From positions 23,313 to 87,312 of the IMG/VR virus record IMGVR_UViG_3300036668_000173: a DNA stretch of 64,000 nucleotides. One strand, 5' to 3'. Below are positions 16,423 to 45,896 of the stretch, piece by piece. Positions within the stretch are counted from its first letter, which is position 1. The number at the start of each line of letters is the position of its first letter. The DNA is from a virus. The translations under genes and the position numbers were made by a program. A model generated the notes under the pieces. That model was not told where the DNA came from, did no database searches, and saw nothing but the letters and a program-made list of their open reading frames with translations.

Positions 16423-16635
16423 ATGTTATCATTCAAAGAATACGAAGAAATATTACAAGAGGCTTCATATGCTGGAAATATCGGCATCATGGAGTTGGTA
16501 AAATTTTATAAACAGGCAGACCCTAAGACTATTGCTAAGGTTAAAGATCTCATCGCATCAAAGAAGAACAAAGAGGCGTGGGACATAATCCAAAAAGTGA
16601 CTGGGGTAACTCTTCACAAGTCTGCTTTTGCATAG
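16423..16635 (+). CDS. Small protein with capsid-targeting-like leader
   Basis: 70 residues. N terminus MLSFKEYEEILQEA matches the head-targeting leader of T4 internal proteins, with a gp21-type site L-Q-E before Ala. The mature part would be about 57 residues with no recognised domain. A late promoter abuts the gene. Predicted head-packaged small protein. Confidence 0.7.
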   Translation: MLSFKEYEEILQEASYAGNIGIMELVKFYKQADPKTIAKVKDLIASKKNKEAWDIIQKVTGVTLHKSAFA

Positions 16636-25817: not shown

Positions 25818-26831
25818 ATGAAAACCTTTAAATCCTTCCTAGCCGAGCAAGTCAAAATTTCTACCAGAGAACAGGTAGAATCAATCATTGCTTCGTATAA
25901 AAACGCCAGCGAGATATTGAATCCTGACTATCAGAATTTAGCTCAGAGAGCAAATAACATATTGTCAAGATATTCGGAATTGGCTAAAAAACCTGTATGG
26001 GATTATTTCAGAGATCTACGTCAATATGACGAGGTCACTGATTTAGACTATGGATGGGGTATTGGTTTATCTTTAAATGGTTTGTCGACCTTCGAGAAAA
26101 AATTAGATAAAATTAAAAAGACGAAATACCCAGCCGAAGTAAGTGGCGTTGTAAAAAAAATTGTTTCTGTTGCCGATAATATCTTGAGCGATTGGAAACA
26201 AATCTCTATTGACATGAAAGCCTTAAAGCTCAAAGTCGTAAAGGTTACTGTAAAGCGTCAACAAGAAAAAGAAGTCAAGACAGAAATACTTAAAGGTAAG
26301 TTTCGTGATTCTTCTTCCTTGATAAAAGTACTCGAGAGTCATTTAGAAGAGTATAAGGAAAGGGCTAGAACAGAGTCTACGAAATTTGTTAAATCTAAGC
26401 TCGATGCGCTGGCCGCAAAAAATTGGGATTTAAGTGTCGTGGCACCTCGACCAAATAGTAATAATTCGAGAGAAGAATATATGAGAGCAATTGCTCGTAG
26501 ATCTATCTATGAGTTATTGACTGATTCAAAAGATAAAACGCCACGATCCACATCAGATGTTCGTGTAGTTCGCGAATTGGGTGTTGCTAAATATATCAAA
26601 GATAGCGTAGACGGAGCCGAGCAAAGCTATCGGGAGTTTATGCAAAAGATGATCGAGAAAATTGGCAAGCCAGTTGTAACTGCGAAGTTTTTGGGTAACA
26701 TCTGGACAGGTTCAGTTCTTGATGTCGTAACAAACGATGGCGAAAGTCAGCGCTGGAACACTAAGATGATCATTAACTTTTCAAAGTATCAGAAGATGTT
26801 TAATCAGTTTCCTACAACCAGAAAAAAATAA
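25818..26831 (+). CDS. Large putative head-packaged protein
   Basis: 337 residues. Starts MKTFKSFLAEQ, close to T4 internal-protein leaders (MKTYQEFIAEA in IPIII), with a gp21-type site L-A-E. The body is lysine-rich with no recognised domain; the C-terminal end (WTGSVLDVV, RWNTKMIINFSKYQKMFNQF) resembles a tail seen in other phage proteins. First gene of the late cargo cluster. Ejected-protein role is inferred. Confidence 0.7.
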   Translation: MKTFKSFLAEQVKISTREQVESIIASYKNASEILNPDYQNLAQRANNILSRYSELAKKPVWDYFRDLRQYDEVTDLDYGWGIGLSLNGLSTFEKKLDKIKKTKYPAEVSGVVKKIVSVADNILSDWKQISIDMKALKLKVVKVTVKRQQEKEVKTEILKGKFRDSSSLIKVLESHLEEYKERARTESTKFVKSKLDALAAKNWDLSVVAPRPNSNNSREEYMRAIARRSIYELLTDSKDKTPRSTSDVRVVRELGVAKYIKDSVDGAEQSYREFMQKMIEKIGKPVVTAKFLGNIWTGSVLDVVTNDGESQRWNTKMIINFSKYQKMFNQFPTTRKK

Positions 26832-26849: not shown

Positions 26850-27581
26850 ATGTTAGATATAATTTCGTTTTCTTCTTTTGTGGCATTGCAGGAGGGTGTA
26901 GTAAACCCTGCAATGCTTGGCGATAAAGATATACAAAAATTAGATAAAATGTTAAAGAACCCTAGGGCAAGTGAAATAGAAAAAAGAGACTCCTTGGCTA
27001 GTATACATGCCAAATATTTGCCCCTGATTACAAGTGTGATGAATAAGTTCCAATCTCAGGTCAAACGAGAAATGGGAAACCTACCAAAGGTAAAGTTTTT
27101 AGCAGGAACCAAGCCCTTCGAGTCTCTTATATCTAAAGTGATTTCCCGAGGAAAGAAAATATCAGAGATAAACGACCTAGTTCGTGGGGCAGTTCTATTT
27201 GACACCAAGGAACAAGCAGACGCCTTTGTTAAGAATTTCACTAGGAGAAACTCCTCTAATGTGGTAGAATATGAAGTGAAGGATAAGGGTTCAGACACTA
27301 CGTATGGTTATTTTGGTTCTCACCATATAGGGCTCAATATTGATGGTATAATTGTTGAGCTACAAGTGATGACCCGAAAGCTTTGGAATTACAAAGGCTC
27401 GGCACACGTTATTTACAACAATACCCGAGAAAAAAAGGGAGGCCCTAATAAGTTTGACATTTCTCAGTCTAAGAAAATCTTTGCTTTAGGGAATCGTCCC
27501 GGCTATGTAAAAGATGATTGGGATTTAAGTGAGCTAGAAGTTATTCTGGAAACTAACGATGAAGCACCGTTTCGATATTGA
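26850..27581 (+). CDS. RelA/SpoT-fold protein with capsid-targeting-like leader
   Basis: 243 residues. Leader SFSSFVALQEG has a possible L-Q-E cleavage site. Residues 85-190 resemble the RelA/SpoT synthetase fold: GTKPFESLISKV, INDLVRGAVLFDT (D109), YGYFGSHHIGLNIDG, IIVELQVMTRKLW (E170), AHVIYNNTR. The basic G-loop is not obvious, so the product could be alarmone synthesis, pyrophosphoryl transfer to tRNA as in toxSAS enzymes, or an inactive fold. An HD hydrolase follows three genes later. Confidence 0.65.
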   Translation: MLDIISFSSFVALQEGVVNPAMLGDKDIQKLDKMLKNPRASEIEKRDSLASIHAKYLPLITSVMNKFQSQVKREMGNLPKVKFLAGTKPFESLISKVISRGKKISEINDLVRGAVLFDTKEQADAFVKNFTRRNSSNVVEYEVKDKGSDTTYGYFGSHHIGLNIDGIIVELQVMTRKLWNYKGSAHVIYNNTREKKGGPNKFDISQSKKIFALGNRPGYVKDDWDLSELEVILETNDEAPFRY

Positions 27582-29510: not shown

Positions 29511-29549
29511 TACTAGTCGAAATAAATACTACTCAAAAGTTTATTTTAT

Positions 29550-29557
29550 ATAAATAT
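29550..29557 (+). promoter_or_regulatory. Late promoter TATAAATA
   Basis: Exact consensus 79 bp before the basic cargo gene at 29637. The weaker AATAAATA (29522-29529) and TATAAATT (29594-29601) flank it. Confidence 0.65.
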
Positions 29558-29636: not shown

Positions 29637-30020
29637 ATGAAAACATTTAAAGAATTTTCGTTGGACGAACAACTATCAACCCAATCAAGGTTGAAGAAAA
29701 AGCAGTCGTTACGAAGAAATAAAGCTAAAATAAAACTAGGAAAACTAAGAGCATCAAGGAAGCTTGCATCTCAGGACGTGATCGCAAAACGCGCCAGACG
29801 TGCCGCGAGAGCCTTTATGTTCAAGAGACTAGTAAAAGGTAAAACAAAAAACGAGTTGCCTTACTCATCACGTCAGACATATGAGAAAATCATAGATCGT
29901 CGCAAGGGCGCCGTAGATAAATTAGCAAAACGCCTTATCCCTAAAATTAGAAAAGCCGAGATGCAACGTAAGTTAAATCGTCGTCAGGCTCAAAGTGGGA
30001 GCGTCGCCAAAAATGATTAA
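29637..30020 (+). CDS. Highly basic head-packaged protein candidate
   Basis: 127 residues, strongly Lys/Arg-rich. Leader MKTFKEFSLDEQ with L-D-E site. Body KRARRAARAFMFKRLVKGK, QTYEKIIDRRKGAVDKLAKR, LIPKIRKAEMQRK is a family found in many myoviruses and fits a DNA-associated internal head protein. Late promoters upstream. Confidence 0.75.
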   Translation: MKTFKEFSLDEQLSTQSRLKKKQSLRRNKAKIKLGKLRASRKLASQDVIAKRARRAARAFMFKRLVKGKTKNELPYSSRQTYEKIIDRRKGAVDKLAKRLIPKIRKAEMQRKLNRRQAQSGSVAKND

Positions 30021-31212
30021 ATCCTTTTCGGACTACCTACAAGAATCATCACGTGAAATTACGATCGTGCGTGGCGCATTTAATCCACCCATAGAAGATC
30101 ATGAAAAACTTTTCGAAGCCGCCTCTAAGCTATCGGGTGGTGGAAAGTATCGCATACATGCAACAAAACTATCAGGAACCCCTAAGGCTCCTTTGGTGTA
30201 TGAAAATAAAATAAAGTACATGAGGAAAATGTTCCCACGACATGCCAGAGCTATCGTGTTAGATTCGCATACCTCGGTTCAATCCATTCTGTCTGATTTG
30301 TATAGTGAAGGTTATACGAAAGTTAACATTGTCACAGAGTCAAAAGATTCTAGGTCATACGAAGCGATGATCTCTAATTCAAATAGAAAAGAGACAAGAC
30401 ACGGGTTCTATAGTTTTTTACCTTCGGACATTCAGATCGTTTCTGTTCAGATGAACGAATCAAAAATTAAAAATATAACCGAATCTGTTGAGACCGAAAG
30501 CTTTCAAGATTTCTGTTCACTTCTACCTTCAACATTCAAAGAATCAAAAGACCTATACAATGACGTTCGTGTAGGCATGGGACTTTTACCCATGAAAGAT
30601 TTTAGAACTCACCTACGACTAGAAACTGTTTCGGATGTACGCGAATCGTATATCATGGGAAATTTATTTAATATCGGTGATGAAGTGGTGATCAAAGAGT
30701 CTAATAAAATCGGTAAGGTTGCGCTCTTAGGATCAAATTATGTTTTGATCGAAATGTCAGACGGTTCTAAGGTTCGTAAGTGGTTGGAGTCCATAGAACG
30801 AGTCGGAGAGTATGACGAATACGAAGAGATCAACGAGGCTTGGTTTAAAGATCTTTTAGATAAAGTGTCTAAGGTCACCAACCGTGGTGGGTATCGAGAA
30901 GCATCAAAAATTCTAAAGATGGTTGTTGACAAAAAGAAAAAAGATGGAACTTTAAAACATCCGACTGGTTATTATGCAATGAGAATTGCAAAACAGTTCA
31001 AGGGTAACATAAACCCACAAGAATTGTTAAAGATGATCAGCGAAGAAGAAGAGCGTCCTGTGGGAACTACAGGAGTATTGAAAACTGCAGACTACAAAAT
31101 TTCACCTACTACGGGTCGAAAGGTTCGCGCACACACCATCAATTTGAATAGAAAAGTAATTAAACCATCGACGAAGATAGAATCATTTTCTTCGTTCAAC
31201 ACAAAACAATAA
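30013..31212 (+). CDS. Nucleotidyltransferase-like protein with targeting leader and KOW-like domain
   Basis: 399 residues. Start ATG 30013 is chosen because MIKSFSDYLQES then fits the targeting leader with an L-Q-E site; a GTG at 29995 adds six unrelated residues. Domain 1: VRGAFNPPIEDHEKLFEAA, a cytidylyltransferase-type G-x-FNPP-x-x-x-H motif. About residues 215-265: FNIGDEVVIKES, IGKVALLG, VRKWLESIERV, a KOW-like barrel. Further gp21-type sites (INEA) occur later. Substrate unknown; NMN or phospholipid-type transfer are family options. Confidence 0.75.
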   Translation: MIKSFSDYLQESSREITIVRGAFNPPIEDHEKLFEAASKLSGGGKYRIHATKLSGTPKAPLVYENKIKYMRKMFPRHARAIVLDSHTSVQSILSDLYSEGYTKVNIVTESKDSRSYEAMISNSNRKETRHGFYSFLPSDIQIVSVQMNESKIKNITESVETESFQDFCSLLPSTFKESKDLYNDVRVGMGLLPMKDFRTHLRLETVSDVRESYIMGNLFNIGDEVVIKESNKIGKVALLGSNYVLIEMSDGSKVRKWLESIERVGEYDEYEEINEAWFKDLLDKVSKVTNRGGYREASKILKMVVDKKKKDGTLKHPTGYYAMRIAKQFKGNINPQELLKMISEEEERPVGTTGVLKTADYKISPTTGRKVRAHTINLNRKVIKPSTKIESFSSFNTKQ

Positions 31213-31230
31213 AAATAAGGAAGTTAAGTA

Positions 31231-32196
31231 ATGGACTTTTTCAAACTTAGAAACGAAGAACTCGGAAAGCATAACGAGGTCGGTACTCCAGAGGTGGTGG
31301 CAAAATTTAAGCGTGGTACCCCAGGGCAACTCTCTTCTCCCCCTGCTCGTCAACCCGCGCGTCGTGGTGACAAGCTCAATACAAAAATGGGTAACTATAC
31401 TAAAATTACACAAAAAGAAATTGGCGTAAAGAATAGTTTCTCTGAAGAGAAGAAGGATCCTTGTTGGAAAGGCTACAAGGCAATTGGCATGAAGAAGAAG
31501 GGTGGTAAGTCTGTTCCTAACTGTGTTCCTGTCAAAGAGTATGTCGACGCAGATCTGAGTGAATCTATCATTCAAGAAATGCAGGGTGCCAACATGGATA
31601 CTCGACAAGTTCATTCGCATTTAAAAAAGGGTGGCTGGTCTCTTACTCGAACTAGTGGTGGACATGACGTTTTTACACACCCAGATTCTGAGAATCATAT
31701 TTCGGTGCCCCGTCACAAGCAACTAAAGGCTCCTTTGATTTTAGGAATTTTAAAGACAGCAAAAACCGCCAAACCGTCTAAGCCCACCAAACCCATTGAA
31801 GAGGCTAAAAAGGCGCCTAGTTATAATTTATACCATAAAGATTTTTCGGGCGCCATGCAACATGCATATGATCATGCAAAAACAAAGTACGGCATAACAA
31901 TTCATCCAGATGAGATTGATAACAAAGTTGCCATAGGCCCAAAAAAACCATCAAGTGGAAAAACAAATTCATATAGATTAAAGGGCGACAAGGGGACTAT
32001 ACAAGTTCAGGTGGCAAACCTCGATAATAAAAGATATGAACTAAACATGTACAAAGAATCATTGGACAAGAAAGCGAATGTCGGAGATTATGTTTCGGAC
32101 TTCAAAAAATCAGATGCTCCACAGTTCAAGGGAAAGACTAAGAAAGAACGTCAGAAAATGGCAGTCGCGGCATTTTACTCTTCTAAGAAAGGGTAA
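31231..32196 (+). CDS. Multidomain late protein with embedded HicA toxin domain
   Basis: 321 residues. N part carries DPCWKGYKAIGMKKKGGK then SVPNCVPV, a motif of marine phage head proteins. Middle (about 125-180): HSHLKKGGWSLTRTSGGHD, VPRHKQLKAPLILGILKTA matches HicA mRNA interferase, with its catalytic-type His in GGHDVF. C part (YNLYHKDFSGAMQHAYDHAK ... RYELNMYKES) is another recurrent phage module. Possible protease sites IIQE and PIEE flank the HicA part. No HicB partner is seen. Confidence 0.7.
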   Translation: MDFFKLRNEELGKHNEVGTPEVVAKFKRGTPGQLSSPPARQPARRGDKLNTKMGNYTKITQKEIGVKNSFSEEKKDPCWKGYKAIGMKKKGGKSVPNCVPVKEYVDADLSESIIQEMQGANMDTRQVHSHLKKGGWSLTRTSGGHDVFTHPDSENHISVPRHKQLKAPLILGILKTAKTAKPSKPTKPIEEAKKAPSYNLYHKDFSGAMQHAYDHAKTKYGITIHPDEIDNKVAIGPKKPSSGKTNSYRLKGDKGTIQVQVANLDNKRYELNMYKESLDKKANVGDYVSDFKKSDAPQFKGKTKKERQKMAVAAFYSSKKG

Positions 32197-32644: not shown

Positions 32645-34468
32645 ATGATGCAAGACGAAAAAACAAAAACCATAGCCGAAGCATACAAAACCATGAAGGA
32701 AGCCATCGAGATTGTTGCTCCTACTAAGTCTAAGGCTTCTTCGACCATGAAGAAAGACGACGGTGATGAAGACGACTATCGCGACGGTGACGAAGACTGC
32801 GAAGGCAACACCAAAGACCTAAAAGTAAAACAAAAGGGTAAAAAAGTTGTCAATGAGTTGTCAAAAAAGACTCTTGGTAATTATTCAAAAAGTGCTACAT
32901 ATGATTTAGTATCAAGATCAATTGCTCTTGGAAGTGCCTCTAGAGGTGACTCAGAAAAAGAGAAAGCCGATGCAAAACGTTTTGCAAATAAAATCCCTAA
33001 ACGATATAAAGGTATCAACAAGGTAACTGATCGTCTAACCAAAGAAGCATTTGATAAAGTTAAACCTGAAATGAAAACGAAAGATTTAGGGTATGTAAAT
33101 ATAGGTGGTGCTAGAGTCAAAGACACTCCAGAAGATAGATTAAAACATCATCAAAAAACGTTTCCGAATGCCAAAACATTACCTAAAGCTAATGAAGAAT
33201 TAACAGGCGGTCAGAAAAAGATCGACAAGAACAAGAATGGCAAACTTGACGCTCAGGATTTTAAGATGCTTCGTAAAGAAGATACTGTAAACGAATTGTC
33301 AAAAAAGACTCTTGGATCTTACATTAAGAAGGCATCAGACTCTTCTGCCTATGATGCAAACATGCAAGGATACAAGTCAGGGCTGAATCATTCAAAATTT
33401 AACAATTCAGAAGTTGGTAAGGTCGAGAAGAAACGCTCTAGTGGTATTTCAAAAGCAATTGGTCGTTTAACCCAAGAAGATACCGAACAGTTAGACGAGT
33501 TATCTAAAGACACTTTGAAGTCGTATATTAAAAAAGGCACTAGGTCTGCAAATAGCCTCAGCAAGAGAGCAGACAAGTCATACGACAAATCGCGTTACGC
33601 CTTTGCTCCTTCGTCTATTGACAAGCATGCAGAGAATTCGGCAAAATATGATGCAGATTCCAACAAGCGAAGAGTCGGGGTAGATAAAGCAAAGGGTCGT
33701 TTAACCCAAGAAGATACCGAGCAGTTAGATGAGTTGTCGAAAAAGACTCTTGTATCTTTTATTAAAGCTCGTGATAATGATTCAACTAAAATTAACGATT
33801 ATGATAAAAGAAACAAAAGAAACAAAGGTGTTCAGACAGCTATAAATAAGTATTTGCAAAAAGATAAAAACAAAGCGATGATGACCAAAGAAGATACCGA
33901 GCAGTACGATCACGTAGAAGAGTCTTTGTCTGGGCCACAGGATCGTGAATGGATAGAAAAGATGGAAAGACACGAACGTCTACACGCCTATCACAAGCGT
34001 ATGGGCAACCACGACGAAGCCGCGAAACACAAAGCGGAAGTCACTAAGCTCGAACGACACAAGGAAGAGTCTAATATGAAAGAATGGACAAATGAATATC
34101 AATGGAATTGGGATGCAATCTCAGAAGCTTCTGAGAACGAAATTGACGATTTGATTGAGCAAATGAATGACGAAGAGTACGAGTCTTTTGTTGCAGAGTT
34201 TGATGAGTTGCAAGAAGGTAATAATATGTATCAGGCGTCGACTAATAGTAGACAACCTATGGACGCGAATGGTCGAGAGAAATTAAAGCCACGCGCTCAG
34301 GCAGATGCCGCGTTCTATGACGAGCACGAAAGAAATAAGACCGTGGTAGATTACCCAGGCAAGGTGAAGCCTACAAACAAGGTTCAAAGACAAGCAAAAG
34401 TTCGTGGTGGTGAAAACCGTAATCCCGAGCCCATGAAAACTTTGTCGGACTTCCGAAAGGGCGTATAA
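32645..34468 (+). CDS. Repeat-containing head/core-type protein with EF-hand
   Basis: 607 residues, acidic and lysine-rich. Four copies of an ELSKKTL-x-SYIKKA-like motif near residues 69, 215, 283 and 361, the later ones preceded by EDTEQLDE. A single EF-hand-like loop DKNKNGKLDAQDF lies at 194-206. Possible gp21-type sites: TIAEA near the start, AISEA and LQEG in the last quarter. The neighbourhood suggests a head-core or packaged protein; the motif is also seen in other phages without known function. Confidence 0.65.
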   Translation: MMQDEKTKTIAEAYKTMKEAIEIVAPTKSKASSTMKKDDGDEDDYRDGDEDCEGNTKDLKVKQKGKKVVNELSKKTLGNYSKSATYDLVSRSIALGSASRGDSEKEKADAKRFANKIPKRYKGINKVTDRLTKEAFDKVKPEMKTKDLGYVNIGGARVKDTPEDRLKHHQKTFPNAKTLPKANEELTGGQKKIDKNKNGKLDAQDFKMLRKEDTVNELSKKTLGSYIKKASDSSAYDANMQGYKSGLNHSKFNNSEVGKVEKKRSSGISKAIGRLTQEDTEQLDELSKDTLKSYIKKGTRSANSLSKRADKSYDKSRYAFAPSSIDKHAENSAKYDADSNKRRVGVDKAKGRLTQEDTEQLDELSKKTLVSFIKARDNDSTKINDYDKRNKRNKGVQTAINKYLQKDKNKAMMTKEDTEQYDHVEESLSGPQDREWIEKMERHERLHAYHKRMGNHDEAAKHKAEVTKLERHKEESNMKEWTNEYQWNWDAISEASENEIDDLIEQMNDEEYESFVAEFDELQEGNNMYQASTNSRQPMDANGREKLKPRAQADAAFYDEHERNKTVVDYPGKVKPTNKVQRQAKVRGGENRNPEPMKTLSDFRKGV

Positions 34469-34561: not shown

Positions 34562-34930
34562 ATGCATTTGTTTGATGAATTGAATGAAGAGAATTTTTTA
34601 TTGTTCGCTTCTAAAAACTATAAGAACCCACAGTGTACAAACATACAAGAATTTTATGATGACGTGTATCGATTTAAGTACATCAAAAAACTATTAAGAC
34701 GATACGAAAAGAACGGTGATCTACAAGAAAGGCTAATTCTAAATCATATGTTAATTTTGTATAACGTCTTTGATATAGAAAGCGCCAACAAGATGATGTT
34801 CTATAAGATCAACTCTGAACACTGGCCAGCTCTAAAAACGTTTTTAATTTATTTGAACTTTATCAAAGAGAACGAATATGTTGAAATTCCTCTCGAAAAC
34901 CAAGTTGTTGATGCCCTAAGGAAATTGTAA
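34562..34930 (+). CDS. Conserved T4-like late protein, function unknown
   Basis: 122 residues: ELNEENFLLFASKNYKNPQC, EFYDDVYRFKYIKKLLRRY, LQERLILNHMLILYNVF. A well conserved protein of T4-like phages, usually in the late structural neighbourhood; role not known to me. Translation is probably controlled by the hairpin upstream. Confidence 0.75.
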   Translation: MHLFDELNEENFLLFASKNYKNPQCTNIQEFYDDVYRFKYIKKLLRRYEKNGDLQERLILNHMLILYNVFDIESANKMMFYKINSEHWPALKTFLIYLNFIKENEYVEIPLENQVVDALRKL

Positions 34931-35511
34931 TGGGAATTCTCACCCAAGCCGCAGACACCTACTACGCCTACAGATTTTTACGCCTTCTCACCACGCCATG
35001 GAAAGAGACGGATGCATTCGAGCAAGGGGTCATAGATGATAATGGTAAGCTATTGATCAAGCCATCTAAGTTTACGACAAAGGAACAAAAAAATTCGTAC
35101 ACCTACTTTAATCGATTGGTGTTTAACATTAAGAGGTTATTGGAAAAAGCGCCTGGGTCTAATAAACTAGGCTCCTACATCGCCGCCCTATACCTGATCA
35201 GAGAAGAACTTGGCTTATCAGATTCTCACGTCCAAAGTATAGCCAAAAAAATGAACCTAGAACTTTCTGAAAACCTTACAGAATCATGGTACGTTTCCAA
35301 AGACTCCCGTCTTGAGGTAGGAACCTATACACTAACCACGGACATCGCCTCTTCACTAACAGGTGATATCGTAGGGACTTCGGGTAGTCGAGTAGTCGTC
35401 AAAGAATCAGTTCTACCAATCGACTACATTTTAGATCGTCCGATATACCCTGTCACGCACGGAATAACAAAACAAATTTTATACATAACACCTACGGATT
35501 TAATGAGATGA
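34930..35511 (+). CDS. Conserved T4-like protein, function unknown
   Basis: 193 residues: MGILTQAADTYYAYRFLRLL, TPWKETDAFEQGVID, FNRLVFNIKRLL, SYIAALYLIREELG. A recurrent partner of the preceding protein in T4-like phages. TAATG overlap upstream, ATGA overlap downstream. Confidence 0.7.
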   Translation: MGILTQAADTYYAYRFLRLLTTPWKETDAFEQGVIDDNGKLLIKPSKFTTKEQKNSYTYFNRLVFNIKRLLEKAPGSNKLGSYIAALYLIREELGLSDSHVQSIAKKMNLELSENLTESWYVSKDSRLEVGTYTLTTDIASSLTGDIVGTSGSRVVVKESVLPIDYILDRPIYPVTHGITKQILYITPTDLMR

Positions 35512-35681
35512 AAATAAAAAGCTACAAAGAATTTCAAAAAGAAGAAGCGCCTGTAAATTCAACGGGTGGAGCAATCGACATGAATCCTACAGGGAAAAAG
35601 TCTAGACTCTTTAACAAAATGGATCGTCGGTCAAGGTGGGATGTTAAGAATTTGTATAATCGAGCCCGAGGGTTAAAGTGA
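35508..35681 (+). CDS. Small basic protein with targeting-like N terminus
   Basis: 57 residues. MKIKSYKEFQKEEAPVN resembles the head-targeting leaders, though the E-x-E site lacks Leu. The C-terminal half is very basic (RLFNKMDRRSRWDVKNLYNR). Overlaps both neighbours by 4 and 1 bp. Confidence 0.6.
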   Translation: MKIKSYKEFQKEEAPVNSTGGAIDMNPTGKKSRLFNKMDRRSRWDVKNLYNRARGLK

Positions 35682-45005: not shown

Positions 45006-45896
45006 ATGTTATCATTTTCCGATTACCTAATGACCGAAGAGAAAATTCCTCTTCGAGAAGATTATTTGTCTGAGCAACACGACATACTCCTAGAGAAACT
45101 AATTACTCTAGGTGGAAAGGCATACCCGAAGTACGGTAACATCGTCATCATGGCGGGTGGCGCAGGGTCGGGTAAGGGGTTCGTTAAGAACAAATTACTA
45201 GGTATGGAAGGATACAGTTTTGACGTAGACGAATTGAAAAAGTTGGCGGTGGCAACCCCAATGATTCAACAAAAAATTGCCAAAGAGTTAGGCGTCGATA
45301 TTAAGGCTTTGGGCGCAAACATGAGAGACTCTAAAAATGTTGCAAAGCTACACGAAATCATCAACGACTACCTAAAGTTAGATGAAAAACGTTTGGCAAC
45401 ACTTTACACCTCTATCCTTACTGCACCCGAGGATCGTAAACCAAATATAATTTTTGATGTAACCCTTAAGAGTTTTTCTAAACTAATGTCGATCACTCGT
45501 CAGGTAAAGAACTTAGGATATGATAATAAAAACATTCATATCGTATGGGTAGTTAATGATGTCGAGGTTGCTATGTCTCAAAATAAAAATCGGGATCGTT
45601 TAGTGGCTACGGACATCTTTATTACCACACATGAGGGCGCAAGTCAAACAATGAACTATATTGTTAGTCTAGGTAAAAAACTGACCGAGTACATGGATGG
45701 TGATATTGTCTTTGCCTTCAACAAAGCAAAGGTCGATTCTACTATTGCCAAGTCAGATTCTGGTGGCATGTATGTCAAGGATGCAAATTTCTTTTATGTC
45801 AAAAAGTCTGGACAACAAGTCATGAGCCCGTCGAACATTTCAAAAGACCTAATCGCAAAAATTAAATCTTATGTACCCAAAACAAGAACTTGGTAA
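45006..45896 (+). CDS. Zeta-toxin-like P-loop kinase with capsid-targeting-like leader
   Basis: 296 residues. Leader MLSFSDYLMTEEKIPLRED, then YLSEQ as a possible cleavage site. P-loop AGGAGSGKG at about residue 50, FDVDELKK, NIIFDVTLKS, VWVVNDVEVAMSQNKNR and RLVATD fit the zeta/AAA_33 kinase fold; zeta toxins phosphorylate UDP-sugars. Late promoter upstream. Likely carried in the head, with substrate unknown. Confidence 0.75.
   Translation: MLSFSDYLMTEEKIPLREDYLSEQHDILLEKLITLGGKAYPKYGNIVIMAGGAGSGKGFVKNKLLGMEGYSFDVDELKKLAVATPMIQQKIAKELGVDIKALGANMRDSKNVAKLHEIINDYLKLDEKRLATLYTSILTAPEDRKPNIIFDVTLKSFSKLMSITRQVKNLGYDNKNIHIVWVVNDVEVAMSQNKNRDRLVATDIFITTHEGASQTMNYIVSLGKKLTEYMDGDIVFAFNKAKVDSTIAKSDSGGMYVKDANFFYVKKSGQQVMSPSNISKDLIAKIKSYVPKTRTW

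Follow-up and report, generated by a model that had tools for sequence, protein, structure and literature searches.

What would a bacteriophage do with a HicA toxin domain buried in the middle of a larger protein, with no HicB beside it to act as antitoxin? The question is raised by an open reading frame (ORF) of 321 codons at 31231-32196, on the given strand, of a stretch of 64,000 nucleotides (the window), which comprises positions 23313-87312 of the 87,312-bp virus record IMGVR_UViG_3300036668_000173. Elsewhere in the record, outside the window, lie T4-type genes for a portal, an S77-family prohead protease (gp21), a scaffold (gp22) and a major capsid protein (gp23). A preliminary description of the window, made from its letters alone, suggested that the HicA domain might be cut free of its neighbors during head maturation. 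I propose, and think it fairly probable, that the product of this ORF is cargo carried in a T4-like head, and that gp21 would free from it a HicA RNase to be injected with the DNA and without an antitoxin. The case is built from sequence comparisons and a predicted structure, together with what is known of T4 and of a cultured relative.

The domain is HicA

The preliminary description saw a match to HicA at residues 125-180 (nucleotides 31603-31770), including a Gly-His segment, and profile searches agree. Pfam family PF07927 (HicA_toxin) matches residues 125-177 with 40.3 bits (3.4e-10), where the cut-off is 27, and PHROG_353, whose annotation is 'toxin', matches residues 120-179 (7.5e-12). 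The Gly-His segment is GGHD, residues 143-146.

The same description offered the fold and the position of the catalytic His as checks. The module was modelled by AlphaFold2 from an alignment of 23 rows, with a predicted local distance difference test score (pLDDT) of 84.1; a full-length alignment of fragments put the modules out of register and was left out of the modelling. The modelled order, helix-strand-strand-strand-helix, resembles a double-stranded RNA-binding domain (dsRBD), as in the HicA family (PMC3969222). The six best structural matches found by VIA-align all belong to that family (6g26, Z 10.1; 1whz, 9.4; 5yrz, 9.4; 4p78, 8.3; 4c26, 7.1; 6hpb, 7.0), the first match outside it coming seventh at Z 4.7, and Foldseek places the same HicA-family proteins at ranks 1-7. 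As to the His, the protein in 4c26, HicA of B. pseudomallei, was solved as the H24A mutant (PMC3969222), and in a profile alignment the mutated position falls on the histidine of GGH, H145. Toxicity of B. pseudomallei HicA requires Gly22 and His24, and loss of His24 abolishes it (PMC3969222). A second His near residue 40 is common among HicAs (PMC3969222). A chance match is ruled out by the Pfam score, the His alignment and the fold matches, and as judged by sequence and model the domain is a genuine member of the family.

It also looks maintained and potentially active, not a relic, because G143, H145 and H162 are invariant across 38 distinct modules, for which the median ratio of nonsynonymous to synonymous substitution rates (dN/dS) is 0.18.

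No antitoxin is in sight. As the preliminary description had it, HicB is missing: neither of the HicB families PF15919 and PF05534 has a match anywhere in the 87-kb record. PF15919 is also without a match in 30 further records that bear the HicA module, and PF05534 in 20 of those 30. Many of the HicA-bearing relatives are represented by fragments, though six of the records exceed 130 kb. Each of the 25 records searched for it holds exactly one HicA. The usual immediate downstream neighbor in the relatives (MSLWGNLDASNNAPNF...) reads like a structural protein, and no counterpart of it stands next to the window gene.

HicA is a recurring cassette with a recurring junction

Phage T4 offers a way to read the borders of the domain. 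Its gp21 cleaves after Glu within L/I-X-E (PMC9026906), and it is for this reason that L/I-X-E at the borders of HicA counts. The only such motifs in the protein end at E111, E116 and E191 and so flank HicA, bearing out the suggestion of possible protease sites on both sides. The arrangement of the surrounding modules was also read correctly: HicA stands between a CWKGYK...VPNCVP motif (residues 78-100) and another phage module (about 192-277). The fold of the latter gave nothing to interpret (model pLDDT 73.5; best Z 4.7, to PAS domains).

A search with the HicA segment recovered 38 more distinct proteins of uncultured viruses, from 155 to 1431 amino acids long, and every one is a fusion. The sequences ahead of HicA sort into 24 unrelated contexts, 23 of which carry L/I-X-E there. 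Counted by protein, 37 of the 38 with upstream sequence have the motif among the 8 residues that immediately precede HicA, compared with 13.6% at other positions in the same proteins and 6.4% in shuffled sequence. It takes the forms QLDE, ILDE, QIEE and ITE, with IQE in the window ORF. On the other side, L/I-X-E occurs no more than 25 residues after HicA in 30 of 39 proteins, against a background of 32%. The same type of linker also precedes 24 clusters of differing downstream sequence in HicA-bearing proteins.

One relative, L124, has nothing in its protein but MKSFTQFINEEVEILDE, HicA and a C-terminal module, in that order; read from the sequence, these are a head-targeting signal with a predicted cut site, HicA and a tail module. 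In another, L155, the sequence after HicA is LLSFSQFIAE/A (the slash here and below marks a cut, known or presumed), which looks like a T4-type targeting peptide. The longest protein of the set (L114, 5453-9748, 1431 amino acids) is a HicA mosaic in which a KFDVYPSAYANGWA module is apparently split by an intein-like insert. Another putative intein, a mini-intein (CVTGDTIVTV...ISHNCEFQ), seems to lie in the terminase large subunit encoded in the same record upstream of the window (L082, 10442-12000).

A protease that could act on such junctions is encoded by the phage. In the window's own record gp21 matches Peptidase_S77 at 3.5e-39, and gp22 and gp23 are encoded with it; the sequence YLSE/AAPT of this gp23 resembles LTE/A of its T4 counterpart, where the cut falls after residue 65. 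All six of the other HicA-bearing records longer than 130 kb likewise encode an S77 protease and gp23. A scan of bacterial genomes found HicA only in free-standing or distant form (33-50% identity), with no instance of the mosaic.

The gene lies among likely genes for virion cargo

Coordinates of the ORF's features and of the gene cluster to which it belongs are given in Table 1.

Table 1. Features of the HicA mosaic gene and of its cluster (window coordinates)
Feature	Position	Strand	Basis or remark
T4-type late promoter TATAAATA at head of gene cluster	29549-29556	+	88 nt ahead of ORF 29637
First cluster gene, start MKTFKEFSLDE like a capsid-targeting sequence (CTS)	29637-30020	+	Sequence
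Cytidyltransferase/NMNAT-like gene, CTS-like start (M)IKSFSDYLQES	29995-31212	+	phrog_395, 2.1e-34
Shine-Dalgarno-like AAGGAAG ahead of HicA ORF	31217-31223	+	Sequence
Mosaic protein with HicA, 321 aa	31231-32196	+	ORF translation; Pfam and PHROG matches
QPARRGDKLN segment similar to own gp22 scaffold, suggestive only	31351-31380	+	blastp E 0.016 against own proteome
CWKGYK...VPNCVP module, residues 78-100	31462-31530	+	Common to many viral proteins
Predicted gp21 site LSE, after E111	31555-31563	+	L/I-X-E motif
Predicted gp21 site IQE, after E116, conserved module junction	31570-31578	+	L/I-X-E in 37/38 proteins, 23/24 contexts
Predicted released fragment, residues 117-191	31579-31803	+	75 aa, 8.3 kDa, pI 10.1
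HicA domain, residues 125-177	31603-31761	+	Pfam and predicted fold
G143-G144-H145, counterparts of Gly22-Ser23-His24 in B. pseudomallei HicA	31657-31665	+	Profile alignment
H162, probable counterpart of second conserved HicA His	31714-31716	+	Invariant in 38 modules; PMC3969222
Predicted gp21 site IEE, after E191, where next module begins	31795-31803	+	[LI]xE at 33/45 distinct homologous junctions
C-terminal module, residues ~192-277, function unassigned, widespread in aquatic phage proteins	31804-32061	+	Homologue matches
C-terminal tail KSDAPQFKGK..., common to other mosaic proteins	32107-32193	+	Sequence comparison

The three genes of the cluster, starting at 29637, 29995 and 31231, are separated by -26 and +18 nt. 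The promoter octamer TATAAATA at their head also stands in front of several head and tail genes and of three more genes that start in CTS-like fashion, those at 16423, 25818 and 45006. By simple count it occurs 11 times in the window where 6.3 are expected, only a modest enrichment.

Cytidyltransferases of the class encoded just upstream of the HicA gene have been found repeatedly in cyanophage virions (PMC10665884, PMC9602691), and 21 of the 28 relatives with enough sequence to tell have one upstream of HicA. A homologue of the window gene at 34562 is near HicA in 33 of 38 relatives. In the cultured relative S-CREM2, the gene closely resembling 34562 is, by my reading of the sequences, gp159, and mass spectrometry has placed gp154 (the cytidyltransferase), gp155, gp156 and gp160 of that phage in virions (PMC10665884). 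The last of these, from the matching locus, has the CW-GY module as well as further types of module found in HicA proteins. Because of the synteny with the cytidyltransferase and 34562, and because S-CREM2 proteins encoded near gp159 are detected in virions, the HicA gene is, on this comparative evidence, in a locus of virion cargo proteins. The preliminary description's late structural-type carrier needs amending: the protein looks like internal head cargo made of exchangeable modules, not a structural protein of the shell.

Two cargo-type proteins seem to borrow from the capsid itself. S-CREM2 gp160 (L113, 14343-15236) matches the major head protein family phrog_696 (4.8e-10) and seems to copy the capsid arm. 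A cargo-type protein of the window (35508-35681, + strand) seems likewise to copy the N-terminal arm of its own major capsid protein (EEAPVNSTGGAI, compared with SEAAPTNSTGGAI).

A proposed injected RNase and its competitors

How might the protein work? The mosaic would be made late and enter the prohead core alongside similar mosaic proteins. At head maturation, gp21 would cut the L/I-X-E junctions, and cutting at E116 and E191 would probably release a basic fragment of 75 residues, similar to internal protein IPI of T4, which is about 8 kDa, basic, present in about 360 copies and injected (PMC9026906). The freed HicA RNase would stay with the DNA, be injected at the next infection and cleave host RNA early, with no antitoxin to restrain it. 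The likely advantage is an early clearing of host mRNA. Each step, from entry into the prohead core through cleavage, retention and injection to RNase activity, is one that I infer. There is precedent for delivery: foreign proteins, nucleases among them, have been packaged and delivered by T4 when fused to its capsid-targeting sequence (PMC9026906).

Several observations weigh against this proposal. The three motifs in the ORF are not above chance (1.6 expected, z 1.2), and for that reason the density of sites in the window protein is not used here as evidence; in these sequence comparisons it is the position of the motifs and their conservation in relatives that carry the weight. The residue after the upstream site is Met, not Ala as in T4 gp23. 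An N-terminal targeting peptide, clear in L124 and L155, cannot be made out in the window ORF (MDFFKLRNEELG), though a short stretch resembles gp22, and one relative, L127, is without the junction motif. Among the cultured phages of the collection that was searched, none has the HicA module in a fused protein of this kind, and the virion proteomics comes from S-CREM2, none of it from a HicA-bearing phage. Finally, the producing cell must tolerate the toxin, which might be achieved by late synthesis, by masking within the fused protein or by sequestration inside the prohead.

The lack of a clear targeting peptide invites the thought that the protein is never packaged but remains fused, serving late in the producing cell as an RNase or RNA binder, for example in mRNA turnover. 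The late-promoter context would suit this, and packaging is itself deduced. It leaves unexplained, though, the motifs at the module junctions, the proteins of L124 and L155 in which HicA is joined to a CTS, and the synteny with virion cargo, and I consider it unlikely. About equally unlikely is that HicA, once packaged and cut, works by binding and not as an RNase, for example by capturing host HicB and so freeing host HicA, or by holding RNA or DNA in the head. The dsRBD-like fold of HicA (PMC3969222) would lend itself to such a role, as would a fragment that is basic like the internal proteins of T4; yet all 38 modules retain the residues needed for toxicity (Gly22 and His24), which are not obviously required for binding alone.

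The remaining two ideas are far less probable. HicA might be freed by internal initiation of translation, since almost every module has a Met after its junction and T4 gene 21 uses an internal start (PMC9026906), but no strong Shine-Dalgarno sequence recurs before the ATG, the bases upstream mostly encoding EEVEQLDE, and without a cut the product would still extend into the downstream modules. That the domain has no function and is a remnant, either decaying or purely structural, toxin activity being a prediction, is hard to square with purifying selection and key residues invariant in 38 distinct sequences.

Other candidate cargo in the window

Four further genes of the window, all on the + strand, are of interest. 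The first (45006-45896) begins 39 nt after TATAAATA with the CTS-like MLSFSDYLMTE and matches Zeta-toxin PF06414 (29.7 bits, cut-off 22.3); it is perhaps a second packaged effector of the toxin type. The gene at 26850-27581, directly after the CTS gene at 25818, has the CTS-like start MLDIISFSSFVALQE and resembles RelA/SpoT at 26.0 bits, just below the Pfam cut-off of 27. An ORF of 70 codons at 16423-16635 (MLSFKEYEEILQEASYAGNIGIMELVKFY...), 13 nt after TATAAATA, joins a CTS-like start to a module present also within long polyproteins of relatives. Lastly, the protein of 607 residues encoded at 32645-34468 is a candidate mosaic cargo, and its relatives lie near HicA in 20 loci; units of EDTEQLDELSKKTL...SYIKK are repeated in it, it has an L-D-E linker, and one stretch weakly resembles an EF-hand.

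Known systems and what the locus may mean

HicA, the internal proteins of T4 and polyvalent proteins are each known. The window domain shares with HicAs of HicAB systems (PF07927; 4c26/6g26, T. thermophilus TTHA1913 1whz, S. pneumoniae 5yrz) the family, the fold, Gly-X-His and the size of the domain. It differs in lying inside a larger protein, with no HicB, in what is probably a context of late phage cargo. Free-standing HicA genes occur in phage genomes as well (for example Aeribacillus AP45, Bacillus phi105, Haemophilus HP1), but these are mostly annotated as single genes, belong to other phage groups and are at most 41% identical to the window module.

The likeness to IPI, IPII, IPIII and Alt of T4, which are cut by gp21 and injected, lies in the small basic fragment predicted, the L/I-X-E sites, the presence of gp21 in the genome and the CTS-like peptides of HicA-bearing relatives. 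T4 internal proteins have one mature domain, however, while the window ORF, whose packaging is presumed, has several modules with sites between them, one module being an RNase domain of a toxin family. Polyvalent proteins, which belong to phages and conjugative elements (Iyer et al. 2017, PMC5512222), are also mosaics of many domains that include effectors of the conflict type, and they are thought to enter with DNA, as is proposed for the window protein; the modules of the window protein differ in being small and in having motifs of the prohead-protease type between them. The main text of that article mentions neither HicA nor cyanophages nor Synechococcus. In the literature found, which does not extend to most subscription journals or to any of bioRxiv, there is no HicA in a virion protein or one processed by a prohead protease, nor any account of HicA delivered in this fashion.

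A broader idea can be put forward only tentatively, as one that I hold to be not quite probable: that a wide group of T4-like phages from aquatic habitats uses mosaic polyproteins, cut by the prohead protease, as a general means to deliver orphan effectors of the toxin-antitoxin type, HicA being one interchangeable module and the zeta-toxin-like and RelA/SpoT-like proteins of the window phage, whose N-termini also resemble head-targeting signals, being others, all injected without antitoxins.

If true, the head-maturation protease of T4-like phages would not only clear the scaffold but also cut injected effectors from polyproteins, and the set of effectors could therefore evolve by the swapping of cassettes. 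Orphan HicA genes of phages would then be injected RNases for the early takeover of the host. L/I-X-E junctions following a targeting peptide would provide a sequence rule by which to find injected effectors among the unknown families of aquatic phages.
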